From assembly GCA_017429325.1 (NCBI GenBank), contig JAFRPC010000005.1, positions 1-50,089 on the forward strand: a DNA stretch of 50,089 bases, given 5' to 3'. Below the pieces are notes generated by a model. That model was given only the letters and a program-made list of their open reading frames with translations. It made no database searches and had not been told where the DNA came from. Below are positions 190-50,089 of the stretch, piece by piece. Position 1 is the first letter of the stretch; each line of letters opens with the position of its first letter. The stretch comes from Oscillospiraceae bacterium. GTDB lineage: Bacteria > Bacillota > Clostridia > Oscillospirales > Oscillospiraceae. Both the position numbers and the translations under genes were made by a program.

Positions 190-369
190 ACATTTACTGT
201 TGTATCTGTTCAGCTGCCCGTAGGCGCCCTCTTTTGTTAAAAGAGGGGCAGGGGAGATTTAACATTAATCTGTCGCCGAAGGCGATTTTCAAATTTTGTA
301 TCAAGCCCCCCCAAAAAAACCGTAGGGGCCGATGCCTACATCGGCCCTTGAAAGAGAGGAAACCATAAC
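190..369 (+). other. Leader of the foldase gene with two hairpins
   Basis: No gene is visible here. A 9-bp hairpin with CCCTCTTTT/AAAAGAGGG arms lies at 227-247. A GTAG-tagged palindrome at 322-347 has arms GGGCCGATG/CATCGGCCC and loop CCTA. A GAGAGGA ribosome-binding site follows just before the ATG at 370. Confidence 0.6.
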
Positions 370-1662
370 ATGAAACAGAAAAAAGTTCTTCTGCTGATCG
401 TCGGCGTCCTGCTGGCCGCCGCCGTGGCCGTTGGCCTGTTCTTTGGCATCAAAGCCCTGACGAAGGCCTCCGGTGAGACCCCGACCACCGAGGCGCTTGC
501 CTCCGGCGATGTCCCGGCCACGAAGCCCGCCGACTCCACAGGCTCCCCCGCGGCTCCCTTCGAGGCGTCCGTTGTCATCCAGGAGGATGAGGCCCTGCGC
601 GAGGCTGTCACGACCCGGGCGGATTACGTCGCCGAGGAGATCCCGGCGGAAGACAGCCGCTGGGAACAGGTCGTTGCCGCCTGCGGAGACTATACCATGA
701 ACAACCGCCTGCTTCAGGTCTTCTATTATTTCCAGTCCAACGACTACAATAACTGGATGACCATGATGAGCGGCGGCGTGGACATGGAATGGGACCAGTA
801 CTGTGTGTACCGCTCTCTGGACGATTTCCACCAGTATGCCGCCGTCGCGGCCCAGGCGGCTGCGGCGGGCCACAGCGCCTCGGAGGAGGAGATCGCCCAG
901 GTGGAGGAGGCCATTGAGAACGTGCGCACGGATGCGGAGGCAGCCGGGCTCACGCCGGACGCCTATCTCCAGCAGTACTTTGGCTCCGGCGTGCGGCTGA
1001 TGGACTATGAGTCCTTCCTGCGGCTCTACATCGAGACCTACTCCTATGAAATGAAGATGTATGAGAATATCACCTGGACCGACGACGATCTGCTGGGCTA
1101 TTACAACGAGCACCCCGAGGACTTTGAGGGCATTTCAATGGACACGGCCAACATCAATGTCCGCCATATCCTGATCACGCCCGAGGAGACCGAGCTGCCC
1201 GAGGACGCCACCGACGAGGAGAAGGCCGCCGCGGAAGCCGCCGCCCGGGAGACCGCCAAAGCCAAGGCAGAAGCGCTTTTGGAAAGTTATATGATCGACC
1301 CCTCGGAGGAGAATTTTGCCGCCCTGGCCCAGGAGAACTCCGAGGACCCCGGCTCCGTGGACAACGGCGGCCTCTATGAGGACGTGTACCCCGGCCAGAT
1401 GGTCGAGACCTTCAACGACTGGTGCTTTGACCCGGCCCGCCAGAGCGGCGACACCGGCATCGTGGAGACGGACTACGGCTTCCACATCATGTATTTCGTC
1501 GGCCAGACGGACAACTATCACTGGAAGACCATTGCCGAGGAGAACTACCCCAACAGTATCATGGACACCAATATCCGTAACGCCATGCGGGAGACCCCCC
1601 TCAATCTGCACTGCGAAGACATCGCCCTCGCCGCCCTCCCCAGCCAGGACGAGGCGGAATAA
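370..1662 (+). CDS. Secreted/membrane-anchored parvulin peptidyl-prolyl isomerase (PrsA/SurA-like)
   Basis: This 430-aa protein is predicted to assist folding of exported proteins outside the membrane. It starts with MKQKK and a hydrophobic segment (about residues 5-27) without an obvious lipobox, so it is probably anchored by an uncleaved N-terminal helix. An acidic, Ala-rich linker and a helical SurA_N-like region follow. The parvulin domain is at about residues 263-380, recognised from NVRHILITPEE, the SEDPGSVDNGGLY stretch and GIVETDYGFHIMYF. An Ala/Lys/Glu-rich helix (about 280-305) sits inside it, as in many clostridial PrsA proteins. Start: ATG 9 bases after GAGAGGA. It stands alone between an IS end and a bidirectional terminator. 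Symbol left blank because PrsA-type paralogs are common. Confidence 0.9.
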   Translation: MKQKKVLLLIVGVLLAAAVAVGLFFGIKALTKASGETPTTEALASGDVPATKPADSTGSPAAPFEASVVIQEDEALREAVTTRADYVAEEIPAEDSRWEQVVAACGDYTMNNRLLQVFYYFQSNDYNNWMTMMSGGVDMEWDQYCVYRSLDDFHQYAAVAAQAAAAGHSASEEEIAQVEEAIENVRTDAEAAGLTPDAYLQQYFGSGVRLMDYESFLRLYIETYSYEMKMYENITWTDDDLLGYYNEHPEDFEGISMDTANINVRHILITPEETELPEDATDEEKAAAEAAARETAKAKAEALLESYMIDPSEENFAALAQENSEDPGSVDNGGLYEDVYPGQMVETFNDWCFDPARQSGDTGIVETDYGFHIMYFVGQTDNYHWKTIAEENYPNSIMDTNIRNAMRETPLNLHCEDIALAALPSQDEAE

Positions 1663-1674
1663 GCCCGTCCCGCC

Positions 1675-1818
1675 GTAGGGGCGGTCATTGACCGCCCGCC
1701 GTTCCCCGCCCGAATGAGGCAACAGGCAACAGGCAACAGGCAACGGGCAACAGGCAACAGACCCGCCTGTAGGGACGGCTCTCAGCCGTCCGCCGTACCC
1801 CCGCTCCATACGAAAACA
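1675..1818. repeat. Palindrome - heptamer array - palindrome cluster
   Basis: Palindrome 1675-1697 (GTAGGG tag, arms GGGCGGTCA/TGACCGCCC with overlapping centre). Then an array of about six CAGGCAA heptamers at 1717-1760, with one unit changed to CGGGCAA. Then palindrome 1769-1791 with arms GGACGGCT/AGCCGTCC. The spacer ACCCGCCT between array and second palindrome recurs elsewhere in the window. Confidence 0.85.
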
Positions 1819-1861
1819 ACCGCAGAGACCCGACTGGGCCTCTGCGGTCGTTCATTTTTTT
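1819..1861. terminator. Bidirectional terminator between convergent genes
   Basis: A stem ACCGCAGAG/CTCTGCGGT (1819-1848) with partly paired loop is followed by TTCATTTTTTTA on the plus strand. On the minus strand it is followed by TGTTTTCG. It serves the foldase gene (plus) and the molybdenum hydroxylase gene (minus), whose stop codon lies in the T-run. Confidence 0.75.
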
Positions 1862-4439: not shown

Positions 4440-4481
4440 AATAAGCCTCCCGGAAGGTTGCGAAAACGATTCGCAAATCGT

Positions 4482-8554: not shown

Positions 8555-8984
8555 TTTGTCATTGCGCGCCAGTGCGCACACTGGCGCGGCAATCCGCATC
8601 CCCCGTTCCCTGTTGCCTGTTGCCCGTTGCCTGTTGCCTTGTCCAGGCGGGGGACGCCGGACGGCTGAGAGCCGTCCCTACGGGCGGGGACGTCCCGTTT
8701 TGTCATTGCGAGCCAGTGCGCACACTGGCGCGGCAATCCGCATCCCCCGTTCCCTGTTGCCTGTTGCCCGTTGCCTGTTGCCTTGTCCAGGCGGGGGACG
8801 CCGGACGGCTGAGAGCCGTCCCTACGGGCGGGGATGTCCCGTTTTGTCATTGCGAGCCAGTGCGCACACTGGCGCGGCAATCCGCATCCCCCGTCCCCTG
8901 TTGCCTGTTGCCCGTTGCCTGTTGCCTCGTACGTGCGGGGGACAGTGGCCGGCTGATAGCCGGCGCTACAGGCGGCCGCCGTCA
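8555..8984. repeat. Three tandem copies of a 144-bp composite repeat
   Basis: Copies begin at 8555, 8699 and 8843 with exactly 144-bp period. Each contains, in order: TTTGTCATTGCG; a hairpin built on CCAGTGCGCACACTGG; CGGCAATCCGCATCCCC; a CCTGTTG heptamer array (8609-8640 in copy 1); and a GTAG-tagged palindrome read on the minus strand (8659-8681, 8803-8825). Copies 1 and 2 are nearly identical. Copy 3 ends with different palindrome arms (GGCCGGCT/AGCCGGC at 8947-8969), so its hairpin changed on both sides. Confidence 0.9.
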
Positions 8985-10408: not shown

Positions 10409-10861
10409 CAGTCACCAGTGACCAGTGACCAGTCACCAGTCACCAAACCCGCCTGTAGGGACGGCTCTCAGCCGTCCGCAGTCCCCCGCCCGGACGCCCT
10501 CTCAACCGTCATCGGGCTTCCGTGAGACGCCCGATGCCACCTTCCCCCCAAGGGGAAGGCTATCCCGCCAGTAGGGACGGCTCTCATGACTGCCCCTACG
10601 ACGGGGGGACGGCGGGCAGATTACCCGCACCCGCAATCGGTAGCGCCGATTATCAATCGGCCCGGGTCGGCATATTGCCGACGCTACAGGCGGCGGGGAA
10701 TGCGGCGGCCAAGGTCTGGCCGCCCTACGGTGGGAACGGCGGGACGGGAGACCCGTCCCCTACAGGCGGGACCGTGGCGCACACTGTGCGCCGCTACCGG
10801 GCGGTTACTCCTAACTTCTTACCTCTTCCTTCTTACTTCTAACTTTTTCCTTCTTACTTCC
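10409..10861. repeat. Dense array of palindromes and heptamers
   Basis: No gene is visible. Heptamers CAGTGAC/CAGTCAC at 10409-10445. GTAG palindromes at 10455-10477, a degenerate one at 10571-10599, then 10640-10662. Reverse-oriented ones at 10665-10687, 10703-10727, 10741-10763 and 10774-10797, each with different arms. A CTTCTTA-type heptamer array at about 10811-10861. A CCTTCCCC/GGGGAAGG hairpin lies at about 10541-10560. Confidence 0.85.
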
Positions 10862-14156: not shown

Positions 14157-14290
14157 GGGACTAGTGACTAGTGACTAGGGACTAGGGAGCAGGCGGCAGG
14201 CACGCATGTAGCGCGGGCAATCTGCCCGCTCAAAGCCTTCCCCTTGAGGGGAAGGTGCCCCAGTGCGCACACTGGGGCGGATGAGGTGGC
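14157..14290. repeat. Heptamers and hairpins at the left edge of the accessory insert
   Basis: TAGTGAC-type heptamers drifting to CAGGCGG at 14157-14201; a GTAGCG palindrome at 14208-14229; an AAGCCTTCCCC/GGGGAAGG hairpin; and a CCCCAGTGCGCACACTGGGG hairpin at about 14252-14275. From 14291 to 14414 I see no gene; the sequence turns AT-rich toward the HNH gene. Confidence 0.75.
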
Positions 14291-20826: not shown

Positions 20827-21029
20827 GTAGGGACGAGCATTGCTTGTCCGCCGTTCCCCGTACGGGCGAGGTAAGAAGTAAGAGGTAAGAAGTAAGAGGT
20901 AAGCCGTAGGGGCGCTCACTGAGCGCCCGCCGTCCCCCCGTCCGGAAACAGTTGAAAGTTGAAAGTGAAAAGTTGAAAGTTGTGGTATCGTTCAAATTGC
21001 GATTTGAACGATGAGAAAAGAACCATAGA
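20827..21029. repeat. Two palindromes, two heptamer arrays, hairpin block
   Basis: GTAG palindromes at 20827-20849 (arms with GACGAGC/GCTTGTC, one G-T pair) and 20906-20928 (arms GGGCGCTCA/TGAGCGCCC). AAGAAGT/AAGAGGT heptamers at 20869-20903. AAGTTGA heptamers at 20949-20985. The 11-bp-arm hairpin at 20987-21012, a second copy of the block at 17641-17713. A degenerate palindrome fragment follows at about 21057-21080. Confidence 0.8.
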
Positions 21030-26239: not shown

Positions 26240-26620
26240 GTAGGGACGGCTCTCGGTCGTCCGCAGGACCCCGCGCCTGTAGGGGCGGTCATTGGCCGCC
26301 CGCAGGACCCCTCGCCTGTTGGGGCGGTCAGCCGTCCGCATCCCTCCGCCCGGTAGCGGCGCACAGTGTGCGCTACGGGACTGCCGTAGGGGACGGGTCC
26401 CCCGTCCCGCCGTCCGTCCCCCGCCGTAGGGCGGCCAGACCCTGGCCGCCGTCTGCACGGGGCGTCGTGGGCGCCGCCCCCTACGATTTCTCCCACCGTA
26501 AGGGCGGTTCTGTAGGGACGGCTCTCAGCCGTCCGCGGTTCCTCTTTAAGAGCCGTATCGGATTCACCTCCGGCGAATTGTCCGCCTGCGGCGGACCGGG
26601 CGCTTGATAAGCGCCCCTAC
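26240..26620. repeat. Array of about eight GTAG palindromes
   Basis: No gene lies in 26182-26643. Palindromes at 26240-26262, 26279-26301, 26353-26375, 26385-26408, 26426-26450, 26461-26485 (imperfect), 26512-26534 and, reversed, 26598-26620. Arms differ: GACGGCT, GGCGGTC, GCGGCGCAC, GGGACGGG, GGCGGCCAG and GGGCGCTT among them. AATTGTCCGCCTGCGGCGGA lies at about 26576-26595 and recurs near 49904. Confidence 0.85.
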
Positions 26621-30609: not shown

Positions 30610-30685
30610 TGCTGGCTGATAGGTGATAGGTGCTGGTTGCTGGGTGCTAGGGATTCTTAGGGTAGCGGCGCACAGTGTGCGCCAC
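30610..30685. repeat. Heptamer array and palindrome in the prfC leader
   Basis: TAGGTGA/TGGTTGC heptamers at 30610-30652 and a GTAGCG palindrome at 30662-30685 (arms GGCGCAC/GTGCGCC). Both lie between the prfC promoter and its start, so they are transcribed as its 5' leader. Confidence 0.8.
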
Positions 30686-30819: not shown

Positions 30820-30922
30820 GTGGCGCACACTGTGCGCCGCTACAGAACGGCGGGCGCTCACTGAACGCCCCTACGAACCCAAGACCTATAACCCCCAGCC
30901 CCCAGCCCTTAGCCCCTAGCAC
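30820..30922. repeat. Palindromes and heptamers in the murI leader
   Basis: Reverse-oriented palindromes at 30820-30843 (arms GGCGCAC/GTGCGCC) and 30852-30874, then CAGCCCC/TAGCCCC heptamers at about 30880-30922, ending just before the AAAGGAGG of murI. Confidence 0.8.
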
Positions 30923-32368: not shown

Positions 32369-32465
32369 GTAGGGGACGGGTCTCCCGTCCCGCTGTCCCC
32401 CGCCCGTAGGGGACGGGTCTCCCGTCCCGTTGTCCCCCGCCCGTAGGGAAGGCTCTCAGCTGTCC
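32369..32465. repeat. Three tandem 37-bp palindrome units
   Basis: GTAG tags at 32369, 32406 and 32443, an exact 37-bp period. Units 1 and 2 have arms GGGACGGG/CCCGTCCC; unit 3 has a diverged, partly paired AGGCT/AGCTGT hairpin. Spacers are CTGTCCCCCGCCC-like. The rest of the gap 32466-32604 contains the promoter only. Confidence 0.85.
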
Positions 32466-34329: not shown

Positions 34330-34387
34330 GCGGGCGGCCAATGACCGCCCCTACAGGGGAACGGGCGGGCAGATTGCCCGCGCTACA
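34330..34387. repeat. Two palindromes at the 3' end of the ABC-F gene
   Basis: Reverse-oriented GTAG palindromes at about 34333-34355 (one arm mismatched) and 34366-34387. On the minus strand the second reads CTGTAGCGCGGGCAATCTGC, and its TAG is the ABC-F stop codon. Confidence 0.8.
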
Positions 34388-36263
34388 GCTCGAGCTGGGC
34401 AGCAGCAGCCTCCCACTGCGCCATCAAGTCGGCCAGGGCGGTCTCGGCGGCCTCTTTTTCCGCTGTCAGGCGCAGCAGCTCCTTGTAGTCGGAGGCGGCG
34501 GCCAGGAGCTGTTCGTCCAGGGCGGCGAGGCTCTGCTCCTGCTTGTCGATCTCCCGCTCCAGGCGGCGGACCTCCTTCTCCAGGGCCTTGCTGTCCGTCT
34601 TCTGGACGGGCTTTTCCTTTTTCGCGGGCTTCTCGGTCTGGGGAATGGGCCGGATGGCGGCGTTCTCCTTCAGGCTCCGGTACTTGGCGTAGCCGCAGAG
34701 GTAGTCCTTGATGGTCCCGTCCTCTAACTCCCAGATGCGCGTGGCGAACTTGTCCACGAAATAGCGGTCGTGGGAGACGAAGATCAGGGTCCCCTCGTAC
34801 TCCTCAATGGCGCACTCCACCCACTCCCTGGAGGCGATGTCCAGGTGGTTGGTGGGCTCGTCCAGAATCAGCAGGTTGATCTTCTCGTCCATCAGCATAC
34901 ACAGCCGCAGCCGGGACTGCTCGCCGCCGGAGAGGGTCCCGACGGTCTTGAACACGTCCTCGCCGGAGAAGAGGAAGGCGCCCAGCCGGTCCCGGGCCTG
35001 CTGGGGGGTGCAGTTCTTCTCATAGAGCATGGTGTCGTAGAGGGTGCGCTCCGGGTGCTCGAAGTGCATGATCTGGGGCAGGTAGGCGAGCTTCACCGTG
35101 GGGCCGAAGCGGATGCGGCCCGCGTCCACGGGCTCCTCCCCCAGCAGGCAGCGGAGGAAGGTGGTCTTGCCGGTGCCGTTGTCGCCTAAGATGGCGATGC
35201 GCTCGCCGCCCTCCACCAAAAGTTCCACGTGGTCAAAGAGCTTCTTTTCCCCAAAGGACTTCTCCATGCCCTTGACGGAGAACACGGAATCCCCGAAGAA
35301 CTCCTTCTCCCCGAAGCGGGCCTTCATGGTCTTCTCGGTCTTGGGCCGCTCGGTCTTCCGGATGCGTTCCATCCGGTGCTGCATCGCCATTGCCCGGCGG
35401 AAGAGGACCCGGTTGTTGATGCCCCAGCCCTTCATCCGCTCAATGGTGAAGCTGAGCTGGCCGATCTTGGCCTGCTCCTGCTGGTACTGCTTCATTTGCA
35501 GGTCGAAGCGGGCCTGCTTCTCCTCCAAGTAGAAGGAGTAGTTGCCGTTGTAGTGCTCCGCGTGGCCGTCGTGGATCTCGATGATGCGCTCCACCACCCG
35601 GTCCAGGAAGTAGCGGTCGTGGGAGATGGTCAGGGTCGTGCCCTTGAACTGCTTGATGTAGCTCTCCAGCCACTCCACGCTGCGCAGGTCCAGGTGGTTG
35701 GTGGGCTCGTCCAGCAGCAGGATGTCGGTGTTCTCCAGCAGCAGCCGGGCCAGGTTCACCCGGGTCTTCTCGCCCCCGGAGAGGGAGGAGAAGAGCTGCT
35801 CCCGCATGGGGGCCGGGATGCCCAGGCCGTTGCAGATCTTGTCCACGGCGGTGTCCATTTCGTAGCCGCCTCCGACCTCGTAGGCGGTGCAGAGGCGGTC
35901 ATATTCCGAGAGGAGGGCCTGCGCTGAGGAAACGGTCATCCGGTGCTCCAGCTCCTCCATCCGTTTTTTCATAGCAAAGAGGTCCCGATAGGCCGAGCGG
36001 AGGACGTTCTCCACCGTGTAGCCCGCGGGATAGACCGGGATCTGGGAGATCAGGCCGATTTTCCGGCCCGGCGCGAAGACGATGCTGCCGTCGTCGGGCT
36101 CCAGCTCCCCGGTGAGCATCCGGAAGAGGGTGGTCTTGCCGCAGCCGTTGCGTCCCATGATGCCGACGCACTCGCCGGTCCGGATCTCAAAGGAAAGGCC
36201 GTCCAGCAGGATCTCTCCCACCTCGAAGGATTTTTTCAGATTTTGAACACTTATTTCAATCAT
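34383..36263 (-). CDS. ABC-F family ATPase (ribosome-associated type)
   Basis: A 626-aa soluble protein with two ATPase domains and no membrane segment. Walker A GRNGCGKTT and GDNGTGKTT, signatures LSGGEKTR and LSGGEQSR, and Walker B LLLDEPTNHLDLR and LILDEPTNHLDI all keep the catalytic Glu. The inter-domain linker (about 250-310) is long, basic and helical, as in ABC-F proteins that reach the ribosomal P site. A Lys/Glu coiled coil (KALEKEVRRLEREIDKQEQS) closes the protein, as in Uup/YdiF. Likely a translation factor; antibiotic protection is possible but not implied. The ATG at 36263 follows a weak AGGGAA site at the edge of a GTAG palindrome. Its TAG stop lies inside another. Confidence 0.92.
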   Translation of the reverse strand: MIEISVQNLKKSFEVGEILLDGLSFEIRTGECVGIMGRNGCGKTTLFRMLTGELEPDDGSIVFAPGRKIGLISQIPVYPAGYTVENVLRSAYRDLFAMKKRMEELEHRMTVSSAQALLSEYDRLCTAYEVGGGYEMDTAVDKICNGLGIPAPMREQLFSSLSGGEKTRVNLARLLLENTDILLLDEPTNHLDLRSVEWLESYIKQFKGTTLTISHDRYFLDRVVERIIEIHDGHAEHYNGNYSFYLEEKQARFDLQMKQYQQEQAKIGQLSFTIERMKGWGINNRVLFRRAMAMQHRMERIRKTERPKTEKTMKARFGEKEFFGDSVFSVKGMEKSFGEKKLFDHVELLVEGGERIAILGDNGTGKTTFLRCLLGEEPVDAGRIRFGPTVKLAYLPQIMHFEHPERTLYDTMLYEKNCTPQQARDRLGAFLFSGEDVFKTVGTLSGGEQSRLRLCMLMDEKINLLILDEPTNHLDIASREWVECAIEEYEGTLIFVSHDRYFVDKFATRIWELEDGTIKDYLCGYAKYRSLKENAAIRPIPQTEKPAKKEKPVQKTDSKALEKEVRRLEREIDKQEQSLAALDEQLLAAASDYKELLRLTAEKEAAETALADLMAQWEAAAAQLEL

Positions 36264-36276: not shown

Positions 36277-36700
36277 GTAGGGGCGCTCATTGAGCGCCCG
36301 CCGAATTTCGTGAAGCGTATCTTGTAGGGGCGGTCATTGGCTGTCCGCCTCGCCTCGCCTGTAGCGCCGGCAATCTGCCGGCTTCATCGTCTCCCGCCTG
36401 TACGAGGCAACAGGCAACGGGCAACAGGCAACAGACCCGCCTGTAGGGACGGCTCTCAGCCGTCCGCGGTTCCCCGCACGGACGTCCCCTCATCCGCCTC
36501 GCTTTGCTCGGCACCTTCCCCCCAGGGGGAAGGCTTTCCCGCCTGTAGGGACGGCTCTCAGCCGTCCGCGGTTCCCCGCAGGGACGCCCCCTCATCCGCC
36601 TCGCTTTGCTCGGCACCTTCCCCCCAGGGGGAAGGCTTTCCCGCCTGTAGGGACGGCTCGCAGCCGTCCGCGTTTCCCCGCACGGACGCCCCCTCATCCG
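36277..36700. repeat. Palindromes, heptamers and a 102-bp tandem repeat
   Basis: No gene lies in 36264-36693. GTAG palindromes at 36277-36299, 36324-36346, 36361-36382, 36443-36465, 36545-36567 and 36647-36669. CAGGCAA heptamers at 36405-36434. CTCATCCG begins at 36489, 36591 and 36693, an exact 102-bp period. Each unit holds a CGCCTCGCTTTGCTCGG stretch, a CCTTCCCCCC/GGGGGAAGG hairpin and a GTAG palindrome. Confidence 0.9.
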
Positions 36701-37236: not shown

Positions 37237-37913
37237 TCCGGTGTACCTCGCAGGAGCGTGAGCAGCTCTTCCCGGGTCAGAATACAGTTCAGGGCCGTCA
37301 GCAGGGCGTTGGCGGAGAGCTTTTCCGGCAGCTTCAGGCGTTTTTGCAGGGCCCGCCGTTTTTCCCGGCTGTCCGGCCCGCCGGAGAGGCCCAGGTCGTA
37401 GAGGTCGGTCTTGGTAATAAGGGAGGCGGTTTTCGGGCGGCCAATGAGCGCCCCTACGGCGGTGGACGGGACGAGCGGACGGCAGAGTGCCGTCCCTACG
37501 CCTGTTGCCTGTTGCCTGTTGCCTGTTGCCTCATCCAAAAACGTCGCCCCGGCGTTTTTCAGCGCGGTCAGCAGGGTCTCGGGGTCCATGCCCTCCACGC
37601 CTAACTTGCCCTCCTTGCCGGGGGCGGCCTTGCGCTTCTCCTTGCCGGGCACGTCGGGGATGTAGGCGTGCTTCACCAGCTCCGGGGGGAGGGCCCCCTT
37701 CAGGTGGTTGCGGATCACCAGGCCCGCGCCGTCGCTGTCCGTCAGAATGATGAGGCCGCGCTTTTCCGCCGCGCTCCGCAGCAGGGCCAGAGTCGCCGGG
37801 TCCTTGAAGACGCCGAAGCCGTTGGTAACGAAAATCGGCGCGTCCACCAGCTGGGCGAGGGTGTTTTTGTCATAGCGGCCCTCCACCACGAGGGCCTCCT
37901 TAATTTTAACCAT
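37233..37913 (-). CDS. rnmV: Ribonuclease M5 with an in-frame repeat insertion
   Basis: A 226-aa Toprim endonuclease that matures the 5S rRNA. The Toprim domain (residues 1-115) has EALVVEGRYDK (Glu11) and LTDSDGAG (DxD at 59-61). The C-terminal RNase M5 domain restarts at about 162 with SLITKTDLYDLGLSGGPDS and ends KLSANALLTALN. Between them, residues 128-160 (EATGNRQQATGVG to GRP) are read from a heptamer array and two GTAG palindromes (37435-37531). Neither frame nor domains are broken. I chose ATG 37913 with GGAGAG upstream; it overlaps holA by 8 bp. The C-domain is shorter and less typical than in Bacillus, so activity is inferred. Confidence 0.88.
   Translation of the reverse strand: MVKIKEALVVEGRYDKNTLAQLVDAPIFVTNGFGVFKDPATLALLRSAAEKRGLIILTDSDGAGLVIRNHLKGALPPELVKHAYIPDVPGKEKRKAAPGKEGKLGVEGMDPETLLTALKNAGATFLDEATGNRQQATGVGTALCRPLVPSTAVGALIGRPKTASLITKTDLYDLGLSGGPDSREKRRALQKRLKLPEKLSANALLTALNCILTREELLTLLRGTPE
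37435..37531. repeat. Composite repeat inside the rnmV coding sequence
   Basis: Read on plus: palindrome 37435-37456 (imperfect, GGGCGGCCA and GAGCGCCCC), spacer, palindrome 37477-37499 (arms GGACGGCA/TGCCGTCC), and CCTGTTG heptamers 37501-37531. Same order and orientation as the intergenic composites, yet without a stop in the rnmV frame. Confidence 0.9.
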
Positions 37914-38941: not shown

Positions 38942-39014
38942 GTAGGGCGGCCAGACCTCTGGCCGCCGCTCGTTTGTCAAAGGCACACGGCGGCCTGGGG
39001 TCAGGCCGCCCTAC
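38942..39014. repeat. Two palindromes in opposite orientation between comEC and holA
   Basis: GTAGGG-tagged hairpin 38942-38967 (arms GGCGGCCAG/CTGGCCGCC) and a CCCTAC-tagged one at about 38990-39014 (arms GGCGGCCT/AGGCCGCC), separated by CGTTTGTCAAAGGCAC. The two could also pair with each other as a long stem. Confidence 0.85.
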
Positions 39015-39018: not shown

Positions 39019-41343
39019 TTAATGTACAGATATTTCCAAGGTTCCGCACAGGTCCGTGCGGTAGACGGTGGCGCCGCAGGCCTCCAGCCGGGCCAGGGCC
39101 GCTTCGCTGGGCAGGCCGTAGTGGTTCCGGCCCGCGCTGACGAAGACCGTGTCCGGTTGGACGGCTGCCAGCAGCGCCTCCGAGGAGGAGCGGGCGGAGC
39201 CGTGATGCCCCGCCACGTAGAGCTCCACCTGGGGCAGACTGAGCTGCTCCAGCAGGGCGTACTCGCCGCCCGCGTCCAAATCGCCCGTAATCAGCATATC
39301 ATATTCTCCCGCGGAATACAAGACGGAAACGCAGGCCGCGTTGTCGCTCCGCCCGGAGACCGGGGCGAAGAGCCGCAGGCTCCCGCCTGGGAAGGACAGG
39401 GTTTCGTCCCCCCGGATGTACCGGAGCTCCGCGCCAGTCTCCAGAGCGGTCCGCTCCAGGGCGGCCCGGCTCTCGGGATTGAAGTCCACATCGGGCAGGT
39501 AGAGGGCGGCCACTGGCATGGTCTCCAGCAGGGCCGCGGCCCCGTTCACGTGGTCCGCGTCGTAGTGGGTCAGGATCAGGGCGTCTACCTGCGAGGCCCC
39601 GTGCTGCCGCAGCCAGCCTGCGGCCTCGGCTCCGGCGGCGCTGCCGTCGGAGCCGCCGCAGTCCACCACCGCCGCAAAGCCGGAGCTGACCATGCACACG
39701 CACTGGCCCTGGCCCACGTCCAAGGCGGCTATGGAGAAGCGGGCGGAGGCGGCGTCCAGTCCCTGGACACAGACAGCCAGGACCAGGGCCGCCAGCACCG
39801 CCCCAAGGGGGCGGAGCCAGTTCGATTCCCGCCGCAGCAGGGCAAAGAGCAGCAGGCCGCCCGCAAAGAGCAGGAAGGCGACGCCGAAGAGGTCCATGGA
39901 GAGGCGGCTGCCGGGCAGGGAGGCCACGGCCTTGCAGATCCCGTAAATCGCCCGGACCGGCCAGGCCAGGAGCCAACCCGCCAGACCGCCTAAGGCGGAG
40001 CTGACCAGGCCCAGGGCCAGCACGGCCAGGGCTCCCGTCAGGCAGAGGGTCGCCAGGGGCAGGACGAAGAGATTCGTCAGCAGGCCGTAGACCGGGACGG
40101 AGCCGAAGGCCGCCGCCGCAATGGGGGTGGTGAAGAGCAGGGCGCCGCAGGTGGCGGCGAGGCTCCCGCAGACGAAGCGGACGAAGCCCCGGAGTGTCCG
40201 GACCAGCAGGTACCGAGGTCTGCGGGGCAGGGAAGGGGCCTTCCAGCGCAGCAGTTTTTCCAGGGCGGGCAGGGCCAGCAGGGCCCTTTCCAGCCGCCGG
40301 GAGACCAGCAGCAGACCCGCCACCGCGGCGAAGGAGAGCTGGAAGCTGAGATTGGAGACGGCCCAGGGATTCGCCAGCAGGCAGAGCAGGGCCGCCAGAG
40401 CCAGGGCAGTGGGCGGGTCGTTCTCCCGGCCCAGCAGGGGACCTAAGAGCAGCAGACCCAGCATCAGGGCCGCCCGGACCACCGAGGGCGAGGCCCCGGT
40501 CATCAGCACGTAGAGCAGCAAAAGCAGGCCGCCGGGCAGGGCCGTCTGCCAGCCCCGATTTCCCAGCAGCAGGAGCAGGACCCCGAAGAGCATCGCCACG
40601 TGCAGGCCGGAGACCGCCACGATGTGGGAGGCGCCGGAGGCCGAAAGGGCCTCCTGCACGGCGGCGGAGAGGCCGCTGCGATTCCCGCAGAGCATAGCCT
40701 GGGGCAGGCCCGCCGCGTCGGCGGGAAGCAGGGCCCCCAGCCTGTCAAAGATGCGCCGGGAGAGCCGGGCCGGGAAGTACCGGAGCGGTGCGCCGCCGGG
40801 TTCGACTGTCTCCACCTTGCCGGAGCCCGTCAGGAGGATGCCCTTGGCCCGGAGGCTCAGGGTCTCCAGACCCGCGGCGGTCCGGTCCGAGGAGCGGAGG
40901 GTGAAGCGGCCTGCAAGGCGGTCTCCGGGCTCCAACTCCGGCGTTTTGCCGTAGAGGTAGAGCCGCGTGGGGACCCGCCGCCCGTCGGCCTCGCTCAGCA
41001 CGTCCACCCGGAGGCCGTAGTCCGTCTTCACCGGCCAGCCGCTGACCTCCACGGTCAGCGCCCGGTCCTTCCCCGCCAGCTCCCGGGCAGGGGAGAGGGC
41101 CAGCCGGACATAGCCCAGGCACCAGAGCAGCCCGACAGTGAGACCCAATATGAGAAACCTTGTGATGCGAATGTAGGGACAAGCATTGCTTGTCCGCTCC
41201 CGACGGCGAAGCAGAAGCGTTCCGATGACACAGACACCGATTCCTGTCAGCGCGGCCCAGGGCAGCCACCCCTCGGGCAGCGCGTAGACAGCCAGGAGGC
41301 AGGCGCATACGAAGCCGACGGCGAACCACATTAGTTTTCGCAT
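39019..41343 (-). CDS. comEC: ComEC/Rec2 DNA-uptake channel with metallo-beta-lactamase domain
   Basis: A 774-aa polytopic membrane protein for uptake of single-stranded DNA. Two N-terminal helices and an OB-like soluble domain (DUF4131; DRALTVEVSGWPVKTDYGLRV) precede the competence domain with many helices (VSGLHVAMLFGVLLLLLG, TGASPSVVRAALM, NPWAVSNLSFQLSFAAVAG). The C-terminal MBL domain has IAALDVGQGQC, ILTHYDADHVNGAA, ITGDLD and VAGHHGS, so the nuclease metal site is complete. Start ATG 41343 with GGAGGC. Residues 50-57 (RTSNACPY) are encoded by a GTAG palindrome at 41173-41195. It precedes holA as usual. Natural transformation needs other genes not seen here. Confidence 0.94.
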   Translation of the reverse strand: MRKLMWFAVGFVCACLLAVYALPEGWLPWAALTGIGVCVIGTLLLRRRERTSNACPYIRITRFLILGLTVGLLWCLGYVRLALSPARELAGKDRALTVEVSGWPVKTDYGLRVDVLSEADGRRVPTRLYLYGKTPELEPGDRLAGRFTLRSSDRTAAGLETLSLRAKGILLTGSGKVETVEPGGAPLRYFPARLSRRIFDRLGALLPADAAGLPQAMLCGNRSGLSAAVQEALSASGASHIVAVSGLHVAMLFGVLLLLLGNRGWQTALPGGLLLLLYVLMTGASPSVVRAALMLGLLLLGPLLGRENDPPTALALAALLCLLANPWAVSNLSFQLSFAAVAGLLLVSRRLERALLALPALEKLLRWKAPSLPRRPRYLLVRTLRGFVRFVCGSLAATCGALLFTTPIAAAAFGSVPVYGLLTNLFVLPLATLCLTGALAVLALGLVSSALGGLAGWLLAWPVRAIYGICKAVASLPGSRLSMDLFGVAFLLFAGGLLLFALLRRESNWLRPLGAVLAALVLAVCVQGLDAASARFSIAALDVGQGQCVCMVSSGFAAVVDCGGSDGSAAGAEAAGWLRQHGASQVDALILTHYDADHVNGAAALLETMPVAALYLPDVDFNPESRAALERTALETGAELRYIRGDETLSFPGGSLRLFAPVSGRSDNAACVSVLYSAGEYDMLITGDLDAGGEYALLEQLSLPQVELYVAGHHGSARSSSEALLAAVQPDTVFVSAGRNHYGLPSEAALARLEACGATVYRTDLCGTLEISVH
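41173..41195. repeat. GTAG palindrome inside comEC
   Basis: A GTAGGG tag and arms GGACAAGCA/TGCTTGTCC overlapping at the centre, almost the same as the copy at 44567-44589. It lies in frame in the loop between the second and third membrane helices of ComEC. Confidence 0.88.
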
Positions 41344-41864: not shown

Positions 41865-41924
41865 GGACGGCTGAGAGCCGTCCCTACAGGCGGGTCTGTT
41901 GCCTGTTGCCCGTTGCCTGTTGCC

Positions 41925-41926: not shown

Positions 41927-44543
<2,617 letters not shown>

Positions 44544-44566
44544 AAAATTAACCTCCTTGAAGGAAT

Positions 44567-44589
44567 GTAGGGACAAGCATCGCTTGTCC
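44567..44589. repeat. GTAG palindrome in the alaS leader
   Basis: GTAGGG tag and arms GGACAAGC/GCTTGTCC with loop ATC. It lies 24 bp upstream of the alaS ATG, downstream of the T-box terminator, so it is part of the mRNA only after read-through. Confidence 0.85.
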
Positions 44590-44611
44590 GCCGGTTTCGC
44601 TTTTGATAAAA

Positions 44612-44815: not shown

Positions 44816-44818
44816 CCT

Positions 44819-44847
44819 ATTATATGGATTGCAGGCAGAAATGTCAA
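44819..44847 (-). promoter_or_regulatory. alaS T-box promoter
   Basis: Minus strand: TTGACA (44842-44847), 17-bp spacer, TATAAT (44819-44824), both hexamers perfect. Confidence 0.9.
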
Positions 44848-45032
44848 TCCTTTTTTTGATACAGAATCAGAGCGTACCGGGAAGCGCGATTGTTCCGGCC
44901 AGAGGGGGAGAAGGGGATAATCATGCAGGTATATTATGTATATACAAAAAATAATTGCAGATTTGTGAATAATTTACAAATATATTCCCCCAAAATTTTC
45001 CATTCTGCGCGGCGAAAAACGGAAAATTATTC

Positions 45033-45061
45033 TGTACAGATGAATAGTTGTATGCTATAAT
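45033..45061 (+). promoter_or_regulatory. Promoter of the large secreted protein
   Basis: TGTACA (45033-45038), 17-bp spacer, TATAAT (45056-45061) with TGC before it (extended -10). The leader of about 70 bases ends AAAAAGGAGAAAAACAC before the ATG. The rest of 44858-45032 is AT-rich without a gene. Confidence 0.7.
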
Positions 45062-45139
45062 GTTGCATGGAGTGAACAGGAAATCTTGTTCGCGATTCTA
45101 ATCTAAGACAGGAAATAATTGTAAAAAGGAGAAAAACAC

Positions 45140-48100: not shown

Positions 48101-48172
48101 GGCCTGTACTTCTGGAAGCAGACCACCACCTCCTCCGGCGGCACCAGCACCACCTACTACACCACCGGCTAA
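45140..48172 (+). CDS. Large secreted protein: caspase-fold-like domain plus InlB-type repeats
   Basis: A 1010-aa exported protein. The signal peptide (KQFKRIFALLLVLAMVLSVL, cut after about residue 27) is followed by a helical propeptide-like region to about 160. Residues 165-350 resemble a clan CD (caspase/gingipain) fold: strand CGLVIFDSHGTTDYSG with His235, and strand SLVYMGICLGMATDG with Cys314, placed as the catalytic His/Cys pair; then GVEVVYGYSQS. From about 425: a beta module (YTVTATTNNSNYGTVSVSG), InlB/Flg_new repeat 1 (GYSFAGWCAS...TLYAVYS, about 505-575), a beta-trefoil-like part (about 585-735), InlB repeat 2 (GYTFLGWVSS...TLYALYS, about 750-830) and a second trefoil-like part. 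No LPxTG or SLH anchor, so it is probably released or loosely bound. Ser/Thr/Tyr/Gly-rich with highly biased codons. Confidence 0.75.
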   Translation: MSKQFKRIFALLLVLAMVLSVLPTAFAAGVGVSGRADAEHVYTEEENAILDNDVFAKIEAVKANAASTMGGISRMTEANYVSLVPDVIEAIKSSETYVPGTLQQNGNFLVWMTTTGMPCCYDPRMEAELHNTVNDPTPEEIARVEADAAALIETYATRGGSANSTKIGLIQPYWESSSSYSDSSFTSYSPYYKTMWQNLYGATGGSGMRYSMTNATVDNIASTISQCGLVIFDSHGTTDYSGSNGDYTSRANCSYLCLTTNSGVTSADTAAQSGPYGTYYHCMKGSGYAYVDGTCIANHMSSSAPHSLVYMGICLGMATDGMYKGLRNKGVEVVYGYSQSVSFTGEKQYMQSILGYVKDGDSFGTALSKAKSSLGKWDPAYSSYSQSQAVANYVAFPIAVSSEDSYPGHGNVDAVQNVYSTWTLFGGSSSNYTVTATTNNSNYGTVSVSGYTITASPKTGYYASGYTVTSGSATVTQNGNTFTVNPSSNCTVRINFAAKTQYTVTLKANGSTYSTLSCYSGQSVTLPSTATSVSGYSFAGWCASTVAQTTTRPTILSGSYTPSGSVTLYAVYSKSEGSGGTTTYQQASSVESGAQYILVAADSISGSTGYAVGNTVVSNSHFLSAVSVTVSNGVCTPSSSNLAKVLWTASGNSSNGYSFYNSSVGKYMGLDSSEYLAPSSTALKWKYTSNGYLDNQVDSEGYYYLSYSSSSTRRYTTSKSGAAINLYKATSSGTTYYTTSPSTTTPDPEPTYYTVTFSTPSGVSTPSSQTVAAGGSITLPTAGAPSGYTFLGWVSSTVSNTTTQPTTYTGTVTVNGNVTLYALYSYTSTSGGGSSTTAYELLGSAPSSWAGSYIITYGTSTSSLYVLKGLSGNTKYESASAGGAVLYSNAGMTYADGYMTGVTNAYVWNVAADSSYYKIQNASTGTYLGSYNSYLYSRSSYSSSYCRWTLSMDSSGNVTAKNNASSSYPYLSFSSSNYFMVNRTAPTGLYFWKQTTTSSGGTSTTYYTTG

Positions 48173-48201
48173 TCGGAGACTGAACATCGCATAACAAACA
48201 G

Positions 48202-48234
48202 ACGCCCGCCGCGACCCCGCGGCGGGCGTTTTTT
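48202..48234 (+). terminator. Terminator of the large secreted protein
   Basis: Arms ACGCCCGCCGCG/CGCGGCGGGCGT, loop ACCC, then a T6 run. Confidence 0.95.
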
Positions 48235-48262
48235 GCCAGAGGAAAAGGTTTTCCCATGGAGT

Positions 48263-49039
48263 TCAGGAGACAATCGCCTTCTTCAACCGGTTCAGGGCGC
48301 CTTTTTCCAGGCGAGAGACCTGGGCCTGGGAGATGCCGATGGCGTTGGCGACCTCCACCTGGGTCTTGCCGTCGTAGTAGCGCAGGGACAGAATCGCTTT
48401 CTCCCGCTCCCCGAGGGAGGCCATTGCGTCCTTCAAGGCCAGCTCCTCCAGCCAGCGCTCGTCGCTGCTGCGGGGGTCGCTGATCTGGTCCATCACCAGC
48501 AGGGGATCCCCGCCCTCGGTGTGGACGGGCTCATAGAGGGAGATGGGGGCGGAGATGGCGTCCATTGCCTCTGCCACCGCGGCCAGGGGCAGGTCCATGG
48601 CCTTTGCCAGCTCCTCCTGAGTGGCCTCCCGGCCCAGCTCTGTCAGCAGCCGCTCCTTGCACTGGAGGACCCGATAGGCGGTGTCCCGGACCGACCGGCT
48701 CACCCGAATGGCCGAGTTGTCCCGCAGATACCGCCGGATCTCCCCACAAATCATGGGCACCCCATAGGTCGAGAACTTGACGTCCAGCGCGGGGTCGAAG
48801 TTCTGAATGGCCTTCAGCAGGCCCACGCAGCCCACCTGGAAGAGGTCGTCCGGGTTCTCGCCCCGCCCGGCAAAGCGCTGGATGACGGACAGCACCAGCC
48901 GCAGATTCCCCTCGATGAGGCGGTTCCGGGCCTCCCGGTCCCCGGCCCGGCTCCGCCGCAGCAGCGCCTCCGTCTCTCCCGGCTTCAACGTCCCCAACTT
49001 TGCGGTGTTCACCCCGCAAATCTCAACCTTCGCCTGCAT
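48263..49039 (-). CDS. sigG: Sporulation sigma factor G
   Basis: A 258-aa late forespore sigma factor. The N-terminal KVEICGVNTAKL is the SigG-specific stretch recognised by the Gin/CsfB-type inhibitor. Region 2 (NLRLVLSVIQRFAGRGENPD, FSTYGVPMICGEIRRYLRD), region 3 (ELGREATQEELAKAMDL) and region 4 (LGEREKAILSLRYYDGKTQV, ISQAQVSRLEKGALNRLKK) are complete. I chose ATG 49039, which has GGAGG upstream and follows a sigma-G-type promoter. It stands alone; sigE and spoIIGA, its partners in Bacillus, are not adjacent. Its presence indicates an endospore-former. Confidence 0.96.
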   Translation of the reverse strand: MQAKVEICGVNTAKLGTLKPGETEALLRRSRAGDREARNRLIEGNLRLVLSVIQRFAGRGENPDDLFQVGCVGLLKAIQNFDPALDVKFSTYGVPMICGEIRRYLRDNSAIRVSRSVRDTAYRVLQCKERLLTELGREATQEELAKAMDLPLAAVAEAMDAISAPISLYEPVHTEGGDPLLVMDQISDPRSSDERWLEELALKDAMASLGEREKAILSLRYYDGKTQVEVANAIGISQAQVSRLEKGALNRLKKAIVS

Positions 49040-49067
49040 AGCTGCCTCCTGTTCACGTTTCTTCCGG

Positions 49068-49097
49068 TAGTATGTCCCAAGGAAGGGAATTTCATGC
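49068..49097 (-). promoter_or_regulatory. Sigma-G-type promoter of sigG
   Basis: Minus strand: -35 GCATG (49093-49097), 18-bp spacer, -10 CATACTA (49068-49074). This fits the GHATR-N18-CATNHTA sigma-G consensus, about 29 bp before the ATG, so autoregulation is expected. Confidence 0.82.
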
Positions 49098-49166
49098 AAA
49101 GCTCCGAAAGCGGGAGTAATCCTGCGTCTGTTGTATTGTCTGCCCTGGTGTTTGTACAATGTTTGA

Positions 49167-49195
49167 TAGACAAACGCGGTATTTTGTGGTATGAT
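49167..49195 (+). promoter_or_regulatory. Promoter of the C_GCAxxG_C_C gene
   Basis: TAGACA (49167-49172), 17-bp spacer, TATGAT (49190-49195), then GGAGG before the ATG at 49234. Confidence 0.7.
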
Positions 49196-49233
49196 AAAAG
49201 CCAAAGAAACAACAGAAAACGGAGGCTTGACCT

Positions 49234-49629
49234 ATGAGCAAATATTTGGAAAGAGCAATGCAGCTGCGGGCCATTGTCACCCCGCATTACAACTGCGGTC
49301 AGTCCGTGGTGCTTCCCTTCGCCGAGGACGCGGGGCTCACCGAGGCCCAGGCAATGGGGATCTGTGCGAACTTCGGCAGGGGTCTGAAGCGGGAGGCTGC
49401 CTGCGGGGCCGTGACCGGGGGCCTGGTGGTGCTGGGCCTGTTCGGCATCGACGACCCGGCGGAGTACTACGAGGCGCTCCGGGCCAGCCACGAGGGGATG
49501 TTGGAATGCGGCGAGCTGCTGCGCAAAAACGAGGCCCTGGGCCGGGAGCGCAAGCCCCACTGCGACGCCCTGGTCTATGAGTGCGTCACCCTGGTCGAAA
49601 ATCTCCTGCGGCAGCGCGGAAAGCTGTAG
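49234..49629 (+). CDS. C_GCAxxG_C_C-type cysteine-rich protein
   Basis: A 131-aa cytoplasmic protein of the family named for its spaced cysteines. Visible are YNCGQSV (first Cys), ICANFGRG, REAACGAVTGGLVVLG (the CGAxxGG core), ECGELL, PHCDAL and YECVTL. Members are thought to be redox or metal proteins and are often near membrane oxidoreductases, but no function is proven. The usual Gly-Cys pair before GAxxG reads ACGAVTGG here. Start ATG with GGAGG 9 bases upstream. Its TAG stop is in CTGTAGG, which resembles the start of the GTAG palindromes that follow. It is divergent from sigG. Confidence 0.82.
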   Translation: MSKYLERAMQLRAIVTPHYNCGQSVVLPFAEDAGLTEAQAMGICANFGRGLKREAACGAVTGGLVVLGLFGIDDPAEYYEALRASHEGMLECGELLRKNEALGRERKPHCDALVYECVTLVENLLRQRGKL

Positions 49630-49640
49630 GCAGATGCGCT

Positions 49641-50089
49641 GTAGGGAGGCATCCCCAGATGCCTCCGGGCCGCATCGTAGGGAGGCATCCCCAGATGCCT
49701 CCGGGACACATTGTAGGGGACGGCGGATTGACGCCGTAGGGGCGCTTATCAAGCGCCCGCGGATGTGCTGTGCTGTAGGGTGCGGCTCTTATCCGCCGCA
49801 GGTGGATGAGCCGCCCGGTTTGCGGAGCAAACAATCGTTTGCGTCAGCAAACGATCCAGCCGGGTCTTCCTTTCGGGACCGTGCCGGATTTGCCTGCGGC
49901 AAATTGTCCGCCTGCGGCGGACCGGGTCGCTCACCCCTACGGGGTAAGAGCGACCCCTACAGGGGGAAACGCGGGACCTGTGGCGCACACTGTGCGCCGC
50001 TACGCTGCGGTCACTTCTTACCTCTTATTTTTTACCTGGTCCGGGCGGGGAACGGCGGACGGCTGAGAGCCGTCCCTACAGGCGGGTCT
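49641..50089. repeat. Palindrome array to the window end
   Basis: No gene is visible. GTAGGG palindromes at 49641-49666 and 49677-49702 (same arms GGAGGCATC/GATGCCTCC), 49736-49758, about 49775-49799, a nested CGCTC...GAGCG pair at about 49926-49962, 49980-50003 and 50057-50079. Between them are AAACAATCGTTTGCGTCAGC-type hairpins at 49818-49856. CCTCTTA-type heptamers lie at 50011-50036. Confidence 0.85.

Follow-up and report, generated by a model that had tools for sequence, protein, structure and literature searches.

The window, by which we mean the whole stretch of 50,089 nucleotides analysed here, contains dispersed hairpins that are GTAG REPs, with a 7-10 bp stem, a short loop and a mostly intergenic position. 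The diversity of their arms is best read as the result of many RAYT/REP families residing together in one genome, a situation that is already known. It is very probable that each family owes its stem and first loop base to the RAYT by which it was amplified, and the genome holds about 13 such recurrent families. Computed support comes from the tag, the pairing, the dispersal of the copies, the arm types shared with RAYT-associated hairpins, and the tracking of the RAYT tree by arm type.

Tagged hairpins and their pairing

A strict scan of the window (a GTAG tag, 7 bp or more of stem, a loop of 2-8 and no more than one mismatch) returned 40 GTAG-tagged hairpins on both strands, spanning 322-50079 (Table 1). 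Perfect stems of 7-10 bp make up 39 of the 40, in a scan that is blind to strongly bulged hairpins; the remaining one contains a mismatch, falls within a long ORF and probably arose by chance. By a mechanical gene set that covers 86% of the window, 29 hairpins are intergenic, nine lie in ORFs and two overlap them. GTAG REPs are defined by GT(A/G)G at the foot of a palindrome, and the window elements, scanned for with GTAG, have the GTAG form of this foot. The original prediction had counted about fifty hairpins behind a fixed GTAGGG or GTAGCG tag: 40 are recovered strictly, the probable chance match included, and fifty is reached with degenerate copies, while GTAG only is invariant. The six hairpins that it offered as examples do have the coordinates and arms it gave them. 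An Rfam scan of the window found no family at the gathering score, and a tRNA scan of it found none.

Table 1. GTAG-tagged hairpins in the window and their counterparts at RAYT genes
Hairpin	Position	Strand	RAYT match and remarks
REP arm GGGCCGATG	322..347	+	same hairpin at RAYTs L247, L249, L251
REP arm GGGCGGTC	1675..1697	+	looser match only: RAYT L142, other loop
REP arm GGACGGCT	1769..1791	+	same hairpin at RAYT L236
REP arm GGACGGCT	8659..8681	-	
REP arm GGACGGCT	8803..8825	-	
REP GTAGC + GCCGGCT	8948..8969	-	none
REP arm GGACGGCT	10455..10477	+	
REP GTAGC + GCCGATT	10640..10661	+	none
REP GTAGC + GTCGGCA	10666..10687	-	none
REP arm GGCGGCCA	10704..10728	-	none
REP arm GGGACGGG	10741..10763	-	type also at RAYTs L094, L212, L248
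REP GTAGC + GGCGCAC	10776..10797	-	type also at RAYTs L209, L231
REP GTAGC + GCGGGCA	14208..14229	+	type of own-genome RAYT L090 (C56)
REP arm GGGCGCTC	20906..20928	+	type of own-genome RAYT L060 (C31)
REP arm GGGACGGG	26386..26408	+	
REP arm GGCGGCCAG	26426..26450	+	none
REP arm GGACGGCT	26512..26534	+	
REP arm GGGCGCTT	26598..26620	-	looser matches only, longer stem
REP GTAGC + GGCGCAC	30662..30683	+	
REP GTAGC + GGCGCAC	30822..30843	-	inverted partner of 30662
REP arm GGGACGGG	32369..32391	+	
REP arm GGGACGGG	32406..32428	+	tandem copy of 32369..32391
REP GTAGC + GCGGGCA	34365..34386	-	
Hairpin with mismatch	35862-35887		inside long ORF, probably chance
REP arm GGGCGCTC	36277..36299	+	
REP GTAGC + GCCGGCA	36361..36382	+	type also at RAYTs L215, L217, L218, L221
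REP arm GGACGGCT	36443..36465	+	first in 102-bp tandem array
REP arm GGACGGCT	36545..36567	+	second in 102-bp tandem array
REP arm GGACGGCT	36647..36669	+	third in 102-bp tandem array
REP arm GGACGGCA	37477..37499	-	type also at RAYTs L223, L230, L236
REP arm GGCGGCCAGA	38942..38967	+	none
REP arm GGCGGCCTG	38989..39014	-	type at RAYT L254, one side only; inverted partner of 38942
REP arm GGACAAGC	41173..41195	+	type also at RAYTs L093, L212, L213
REP arm GGACGGCT	41865..41887	-	
REP arm GGACAAGC	44567..44589	+	
REP arm GGAGGCATC	49641..49666	+	none
REP arm GGAGGCATC	49677..49702	+	tandem copy of 49641..49666
REP arm GGGCGCTT	49736..49758	+	
REP GTAGC + GGCGCAC	49982..50003	-	
REP arm GGACGGCT	50057..50079	-	

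Pairing was assessed without choosing elements by pairing, over all 367 GTAG sites of the window, by re-dealing their 3' sides. An exact 8-bp partner is present at 24 of the 367 sites, against a re-dealt mean of 0.55 and maximum of 4 (500 shuffles), and six other tetramers gave 0 each in the same test; the proposal of real, dispersed tagged hairpins that keep their pairing while their arms differ is thus borne out. When up to two mismatches are allowed, an 8-nt partner is found at 49 of the 367 sites, and at 11.7 after re-dealing. Since the 24 exact sites comprise only 8 distinct arms, re-dealing among these 24 still pairs a mean of 5.6 (maximum 12). In the fraction of sites followed by a hairpin, GTAG stands second of 256 tetramers, behind the overlapping TAGG (0.109), the median being 0.011. 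Among 32 equal-length elements, representing 18 distinct rows, six of eight stem pairs have changed on both sides and none on one side; the lowest stem position is unpaired in seven of the 18 rows, these being the GTAGC types. The statistical check of covariation suggested earlier came out positively for the covariation score and the percentage paired, which were equalled in 0/500 shuffles; the number of doubly changed pairs was equalled in 77/500 and that of pair types in 197/500. As these 32 elements were preselected for pairing, the re-dealing over all 367 sites is the fair test.

Arm types and copy number

Of 84 hairpins in the initial 350 kb of the sample, 62 belong to ten arm types, as do 244 of 305 in 730 kb that were partly chosen for REPs. 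The 730 kb contain 53 perfect copies of GGACGGCT, 43 of GCGGGCA and 37 of GGGCGCTC; the constancy of arm sequence in ordinary REP elements, which the original prediction had used as a contrast, is therefore seen within each type here as well. Exact copies of four arm types number 73 (for GGACGGCT), 53, 34 and 54 in the genome from which the window comes, reversed-pattern controls giving 0, and the 28-nt flanks are distinct in all 52 GGACGGCT copies with readable flanks. High copy number, dispersal and a mostly intergenic position, all expected of GTAG REPs, are found together. The first loop base is invariant in 220 of 220 elements from ten families with 3-nt loops, and later loop bases vary in most; a short perfect palindrome with a fixed loop position 1, the mark of Group 3 (subclass 2.5) REPtrons, is accordingly present. 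Loop position 1 is the critical base in S. maltophilia too, according to PMC8266576. Eight sites of the sampled genome have double-foot REPs, with GTAG and CTAC ends, and TAGG loops are the opposite strand of such copies.

RAYT genes of the genome and its relatives

A Pfam Y1_Tnp search of the same genome gave one match below the cut-off, which led to the RAYT at C31, and with this protein as query three RAYTs (L060, L090 and L091) were found; among 150 genomes of the family, 59 had a Pfam match. GGGCGCTC REPs lie on both flanks of the RAYT at C31, and GCGGGCA REPs on both flanks of that at C56, both types being present in the window. The suggestion of a RAYT transposase flanked by the same element thus holds at two loci, which also supply the cognate gene with the same flanking REP by which GTAG REPs are recognised. 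The RAYT at C33 has no hairpin in or beside the gene, and in this assembly, which is 73% complete, no RAYT was found with GGACGGCT beside it despite the many copies of this type. All 18 aligned RAYTs are matched by NCBIfam REP_Tyr_transpos with E up to 0.001 (the C31 protein reaches 69 bits, below the curated 80), and the closest solved structure, by sequence and by fold, is 4ER8, in which a REP hairpin is bound by a RAYT. By eye, most aligned rows carry NH[IVL]H and YIxxNP, and L060 carries DHVH and YVAYNA.

For the analysis of reading frames, 150 RAYT loci gave 137 distinct proteins, 133 of them intact; for the tree, 194 loci with a gene gave 169 distinct proteins, of which 163 entered. Several intact genes are near-duplicates (L155/L177/L187/L190, L150/L183, L141/L146, L108/L109), so that gene counts do not equal event counts. 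No hairpin was found in or adjoining 50 of the 163 RAYTs, that at C33 among them; the 44 tree genes from the same genus divide into 31 with a flanking hairpin, three with one internal site and 10 with none (C33 included).

Under a strict rule, by which the tag, the stem, the length of the loop and its first base must all agree, 10 of the 20 window types, comprising 28 of the 40 elements, equal a RAYT-associated hairpin of the genome itself or of its relatives, against 0.11 types (maximum 2) in a permuted-arm null; for the other 10 types (12 elements) no equal RAYT-associated hairpin was found under this rule. For nine types, with 27 elements, the strict match recurs at a second place in or beside a single RAYT gene. 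By a looser 12-base rule, 12 of 18 window types were matched to RAYTs and six were not. Arm type follows the RAYT tree and its clades: on a tree built from 146 columns, with many forks open, 38 changes of type are required over the 80 genes and 17 types of the test set (arm types seen at least three times), compared with a mean of 63.5 and a minimum of 58 in 200 shuffles. Across 23 genomes of the genus, copy number was also ranked against the presence of a RAYT with the same REP (mean rank 19.0 on a scale of 0-22; random 11.0; as high in 0/20,000 random draws), a result given little weight because copies at RAYT sites were counted, only four arm types were used and genomes were assigned by hand, G311 being placed with the RAYT-bearing ones by one hairpin 474 bp away.

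REPs inside RAYT reading frames

In relatives only, 53 of the 133 intact RAYT genes carry two REPs within the reading frame, bracketing the HUH codons; L060, L090 and L091 have no internal REP. The two hairpins stand in opposite orientation at fixed sites, usually with the same arms. They are unlike each other in 13 of the 53 genes, in 10 of these by one stem pair (four of the ten being close copies of one gene), and each unlike hairpin is still paired within the one mismatch allowed by the detector. The presence of REPs inside RAYT genes is already published (Quentin 2018, PMC6006769), and an internal REP between HuH and Y, a trait of subclass 2.4, occurs in many of the relatives; for the two-site arrangement we found no printed account in the literature compared, some of it accessible in part. 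In the predicted model of L140, one of these RAYTs, the two peptides encoded by REPs begin at codon 45 and codon 101. They coincide with its two lowest-confidence inner blocks, residues 41-50 (mean pLDDT 55) and 101-110 (mean 60), which would speak for tolerant loops more than for residues that read DNA. GTA codons at the first internal tag were also counted, but this was discarded as an argument, since the tag itself forces GTA. One may speculate, with considerable reserve, that four arms, two protein loops and the DNA specificity are tied together in these genes, and that the hairpins might let a RAYT cut its own gene or serve as a self-limiting switch through mRNA folding. According to this speculation, changing the REP arm would mean rewriting two loops of the enzyme.

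Discussion

The hairpins resemble the super-family of GTAG-tagged REPs (Di Nocera 2013, PMC3733652; Nunvar 2010, PMC2817692) in their GTAG foot, 7-10 bp stem, short loop, high copy number and intergenic position, and also in dimers, clusters, RAYT genes with the same flanking repeats and sub-families marked by complementary stem changes. Those publications already report several REP classes per genome, such sub-families and 'selection for complementary mutations'. Unlike in those accounts, the host here belongs to the Clostridia; the words Firmicutes, Clostridi, Faecalibacterium and Oscillibacter were searched for in the main text of PMC3733652 and are absent from it. With the Group 3 (subclass 2.5) REPs of Stenotrophomonas and Pseudomonas, as portrayed in PMC8266576, the elements share a perfect 8-bp stem immediately after GTAG, a 3-nt loop and a fixed first loop base. 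However, stems of 9-10 bp and loops of 2 or 4 nt also occur among the families here, and the RAYTs, as judged by eye, mostly carry NHxH and YIxxNP-like motifs, nearer to the printed motifs of subclass 2.4 than to the DH[LF]H and YI[VI]ANP of subclass 2.5. The subclass 2.4 motifs NH[IFV]H, WQ and YIxNNP largely agree with these RAYTs, by eye and against printed motifs rather than profiles. Like the TnpA_REP of that subclass in PMC6006769, the relatives have in-frame internal REPs past the HuH motif, and double-foot REPs are shared as well. The relatives differ in a second internal REP before HuH, after the first strand, whereas Table 1 of that paper places the subclass 2.4 insertion between beta3 and alphaC, and apparently none between beta1 and alphaA. 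The long stem with a conserved bulge that marks E. coli-type (group 2) REPs was not seen among the 40 hairpins of the window scan.

If the hairpins belong, as is very probable, to multiple RAYT/REP families, they would be small, non-autonomous pieces of DNA that RAYT (TnpA_REP) HUH/tyrosine nucleases recognise and spread. By analogy with other species, single-strand folding, GTAG-guided cleavage and strand transfer would be involved, the REP being cut and joined as a single strand by the RAYT. The stem and first loop base of each family would be set by the RAYT that amplified it, and RAYT paralogues would diverge and be gained or lost together with their REPs, leaving bursts of near-identical copies. 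Such turnover and bursts would result in a window with many unlike, internally paired arms behind a constant tag. The arms would differ and yet pair because they represent separate REP families, most copies (28/40) matching a RAYT-side hairpin.

An alternative that we regard as improbable is a single family of hairpins in which the arms mutate where they stand and are then made to match again. Compensatory selection could do this, or template switching at quasi-palindromes that copies one arm onto the other. Template switching reportedly creates and maintains hairpins (PMC8794818), and around nine master arms we found, beside 208 perfect copies, 18 compensated single-pair variants, 19 variants broken on one side and 12 with two uncompensated changes; the one-pair differences between internal hairpins in 10 RAYT genes, with pairing kept (at most one mismatch), point in the same direction. 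However, the single master GGGCGCTC accounts for 11 of the 18 compensated variants, and GGGCGGTC, its recurrent one-pair neighbour, has 11 copies in the census, so the compensating events were probably few. The arm variation is moreover discrete and tracks RAYT clades. Inverted loops, expected from some switches, were not seen in the main types of the genome itself. At RAYTs they are rare, and AAT next to ATT can there equally be read as one point change. Arm-to-arm copying, which the original prediction had put forward, is therefore not supported and is unneeded, the diversity lying mainly between families, about half of which match a RAYT-side hairpin; it is a possible route for the origin of new types. 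That prediction had opposed a varying family to a few fixed arm types lacking compensatory pairs: the types are fixed and, loosely speaking, few (about 13 recurrent ones), but compensatory pairs do exist between them.

Less probable still is that the hairpins are kept for an action at the RNA level, as terminators, in protection of mRNA ends or in attenuation, their spread being secondary. Their mostly intergenic position in the window would suit such a role, as would the statement, in PMC3733652, that REPs lie mainly downstream of genes and that many are plausibly transcribed. Against it stand the lack of an Rfam family at the gathering score, the presence of both orientations and of tandem arrays, and the near-identity of copies of one type at unrelated sites; a fixed, one-sided GTAG would also be left unexplained by RNA pairing alone. 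A mixed metagenome bin, in which contigs from several species would merely simulate the diversity of arms, has next to no probability as an explanation and is rejected, even for a 68-contig draft with 3.9% estimated contamination, since the main arm types are common to many contigs, several types lie within one array (e.g. 10455-10797, 26386-26620) and several of the four arm types counted above are also present in further genomes of the genus.

With multiple RAYT/REP families as the preferred reading, the co-changing arms become a readable record of the RAYTs active in a lineage, and a multi-family REP system is placed in an uncultured genus of Oscillospiraceae. The two-REP genes of the relatives offer a natural system for studying the switching of RAYT/REP specificity and a possible action of a RAYT on its own gene.

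The window and its tagged hairpins

It was originally predicted that the window holds about fifty tagged hairpins whose arms change and yet stay paired, and the six examples offered were all recovered where they had been placed. A strict scan gave 40 GTAG hairpins, 39 of which were taken as REPs; the one at 35862 was judged to be a chance occurrence. Such a scan favours paired sites by design, and a fair test has to start from all GTAG sites and ask whether the 8 bases that follow have an exact partner 2-5 bases further on. This was so at 24 of 367 sites; re-dealing the 3' sides among sites (500 shuffles) gave a mean of only 0.55 and never more than 4, and the tagged, paired hairpins are thus real. 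Six other tetramers gave 0 exact partners each in the same test of the window, and with one mismatch allowed 38 GTAG sites were paired versus 2.06 after re-dealing.

The 24 exactly paired elements carry 8 distinct arms, and re-dealing among these 24 alone pairs a mean of 5.6 (maximum 12). Among 32 elements of equal length (18 distinct), both sides changed at 6 of 8 stem pairs and one side only at 0; their covariation score was above all 500 shuffles, while a simple tally of pairs altered on both sides was not, being reached in 77 of 500. With gene boundaries set by a mechanical choice of ORFs, 29 of the 40 hairpins are intergenic, 2 overlap an ORF end and 9 lie inside ORFs; in our judgement six of these nine are in ORFs whose length or codon-position composition makes them doubtful, and two are close to the 5' portion of long ORFs.

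Other repeats lie near these REPs. The REPs at 1769, 36443, 37499 and 41887 (GGACGGCT or GGACGGCA arms) are preceded, within ~15 bp, by the GGCAACAGGCAAC motif, repeated in 14-bp steps; the motif also lies near the three REPs at 8659-8969, as if repeats and REPs were parts of one longer repeated unit. Between REPs, inside the same arrays, a second palindrome without a tag recurs, made up of CACCTTCCCCC and then an inverted arm resembling GGGGAAGG.

Coordinates of REP-related features (L numbers, own-genome stretches or RAYT genes)
Feature	Location	Positions
GGCAACAGGCAAC repeats, 14-bp steps	window	1718-1758, 8612-8926, 36406-36432, 37504-37530, 41898-41924
CACCTTCCCCC/GGGGAAGG palindrome	window	10538, 36512, 36614, 36730
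Double-foot GGGCCGATG REPs (GTAG one end, CTAC other)	L013	789-817
Double-foot GGGCCGATG REP	L018	9727-9755
Double-foot GGGCCGATG REPs	L274	2898-2926, 9920-9948, 15156-15184
Double-foot GGGCCGATG REPs	L281	2662-2690, 7719-7747
Double-foot GGGCCGATG REP	L286	8444-8472
RAYT genes of relatives with two inverted in-frame REPs around HUH	L063, L066, L067, L069, L141, others among L060-L209	

Arm types in the genome

The draft genome comprises 2.03 Mb in 68 contigs (completeness 72.8%, contamination 3.9%; the window is C3:1-50089). Loci of two named records, JAEEZZ010000057.1 (Oscillospiraceae bacterium Tb.RUG.97) and JAEEKA010000069.1 (Tb.RUG.182), have long exact stretches in common with loci of G301 and G300, respectively, both of the same genus, which is therefore an uncultured one of NCBI's Oscillospiraceae, class Clostridia.

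Stretches for the arm census were not randomly drawn. The first census covered 350 kb, made up of the window plus 20 stretches, and gave 84 hairpins of 25 arm types, 62 of them in ten types; REP density was higher in the window than in the other stretches of this non-random sample, the window having 40 of the 84 hairpins but 14% of the sequence. The enlarged census (730,475 bases, ~36% of the draft) added 20 stretches chosen largely at listed copies of four types, hence enriched for those, and gave 305 perfect-stem elements of 39 types, with 244 in ten types and 20 types as singletons. Thirteen types had at least 6 copies, a fourteenth being the opposite strand of the double-foot copies, which are of the REP type described for subclass 2.4. 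REP arms in this genome fall into discrete types.

In the whole draft, exact copies number 73 for GGACGGCT, 53 for GGGCGCTC, 34 for GTAGC-GGCGCAC and 54 for GTAGC-GCGGGCA, with 0 matches to the reversed-pattern controls of these four. The members of a type are scattered over unrelated sites: the 28-nt flanks were distinct in 52 of 52 GGACGGCT copies, although a few bases adjoining the hairpin are common to them. Around nine master arms, perfect copies numbered 208; of the variants, 19 had pairing broken by a change on one side, 18 had a compensated change and 12 had two changes without compensation. One master accounts for 11 of the 18 compensated variants, and its recurrent one-pair neighbour type has 11 copies. 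The first loop base is constant within type, without exception among the 220 elements of ten families that have 3-nt loops, and the second or third varies in most of these families.

RAYT genes and their REPs

Three RAYT genes were found in the draft. The one on C31 has GGGCGCTC REPs on both sides and that on C56 has GCGGGCA REPs, both types being present in the window; no REP hairpins were found near the one on C33. No RAYT for GGACGGCT was found in this 72.8% complete draft, which is weak evidence since the genome is incomplete. The NCBIfam REP-associated tyrosine transposase model matches 18 of 18 aligned relatives, with the C31 protein under the curated cut-off; the proteins also match E. 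coli TnpA_REP (4ER8) in sequence (E 2.5e-13) and, for one relative, in predicted fold. RAYT matches occur in 19 of 23 genomes of the genus.

RAYT counts come from a convenience sample of 30 loci chosen automatically, 40 picked by hand and the 80 best of at least 511 matches, genus RAYT loci being added for window-type matching, the RAYT tree and the position-and-tag stem test. The window's hairpins were compared with those that lie in, or no more than 700 bp from, 169 distinct RAYT genes. When the whole stem, the loop length and the first loop base all had to agree, 10 of 20 window types (28 of 40 elements) match, against a permuted-arm mean of 0.11 types (maximum 2); for 9 types (27 elements) a single RAYT gene has the matching hairpin twice, around or inside it. 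By a looser rule (tag and first arm bases) 12 of 18 types and 31 of 40 elements match, with a permuted-arm mean of 0.34.

On a tree of 163 RAYTs, most REP-coded columns left out, the arm types with 3 or more occurrences require 38 changes, as against a mean of 63.5 and a minimum of 58 after shuffling. RAYT clades share related arms, for example GGCGCAC in L220, L231 and L233 (loops differ), GCGGGCA/T in L062, L090, L214, L221 and L240, GGACAAGC in L097, L212 and L213, and GGGCCGATG in L247, L249 and L251. REPs at or near the RAYT genes L098, L117 and L121 have a common off-centre stem mismatch (GGC/GAC side), which recalls the irregular stem of E. coli REPs.

REPs within RAYT reading frames

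In 53 of 133 intact distinct RAYT genes of relatives, two internal REPs stand astride the HUH codons; no internal hairpins were found in the three own-genome RAYT genes examined. The first most often lies 132 nt before the HUH codons and the second 36-39 nt after their start, in opposite orientation in 52 of the 53 genes (the exception, L144, is an overlapping detection). Internal hairpins numbered 130, versus a mean of 2.03 and a maximum of 8 after within-gene synonymous codon shuffling (100 shuffles), and 40 of the 53 genes have the same tag and arm at both sites (re-dealt expectation 2.05, maximum 9). When GTAGs were chosen only for their tag and their position, at most one stem mismatch was present in 91 of 91 at the first site and in 94 of 99 at the second, against mostly three to five at background positions; 73 and 65 of 164 genes, respectively, have no GTAG there.

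No flanking hairpins were found within 700 bp either side of 40 of the 53 two-site genes. On the RAYT tree, 13 changes between the internal and the flanking state are required (shuffled mean 35, minimum 27), indicating repeated but not free switching. Hairpins of the internal kind also occur dispersed in genomes: Flavonifractor sp. An10 has 47 matches to its RAYT-internal hairpin, the two internal ones included (control 0), and G098, another relative, just 13, including three at its RAYT. In the L140 protein model the REP-coded stretches coincide with two low-confidence loops. The frame of L100 (G258:C7) holds five in-frame REPs after HUH (GTAGC tag, GGACGGG arms), which lengthen the protein by a repeated peptide.

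The available text of PMC6006769 describes REPs within tnpA_REP genes of subclass 2.4, most of them located between HuH and Y. We found no account of a matched internal pair with a site before HuH in that text, nor in the titles and opening abstract lines of other papers listed on the subject, and the two-site arrangement is likely to be new.

Relation to known REPs

The available text of PMC3733652 and PMC2817692 already describes GTAG REPs with their RAYTs, genomes that have several REP classes, and complementary variation of the stems; the co-changing paired arms, the surprise of the original prediction, had therefore already been noted in 2010 (PMC2817692). The window hairpins are additional GTAG REPs, a class already described, and the available parts of PMC12306157 and PMC8049555 hold nothing against placing them there. 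The arms most probably differ because many RAYT/REP families coexist in one genome, and their lasting pairing would reflect recognition of the folded hairpin by the RAYT, as the biochemistry of the E. coli and S. maltophilia enzymes suggests (available text of PMC8266576).
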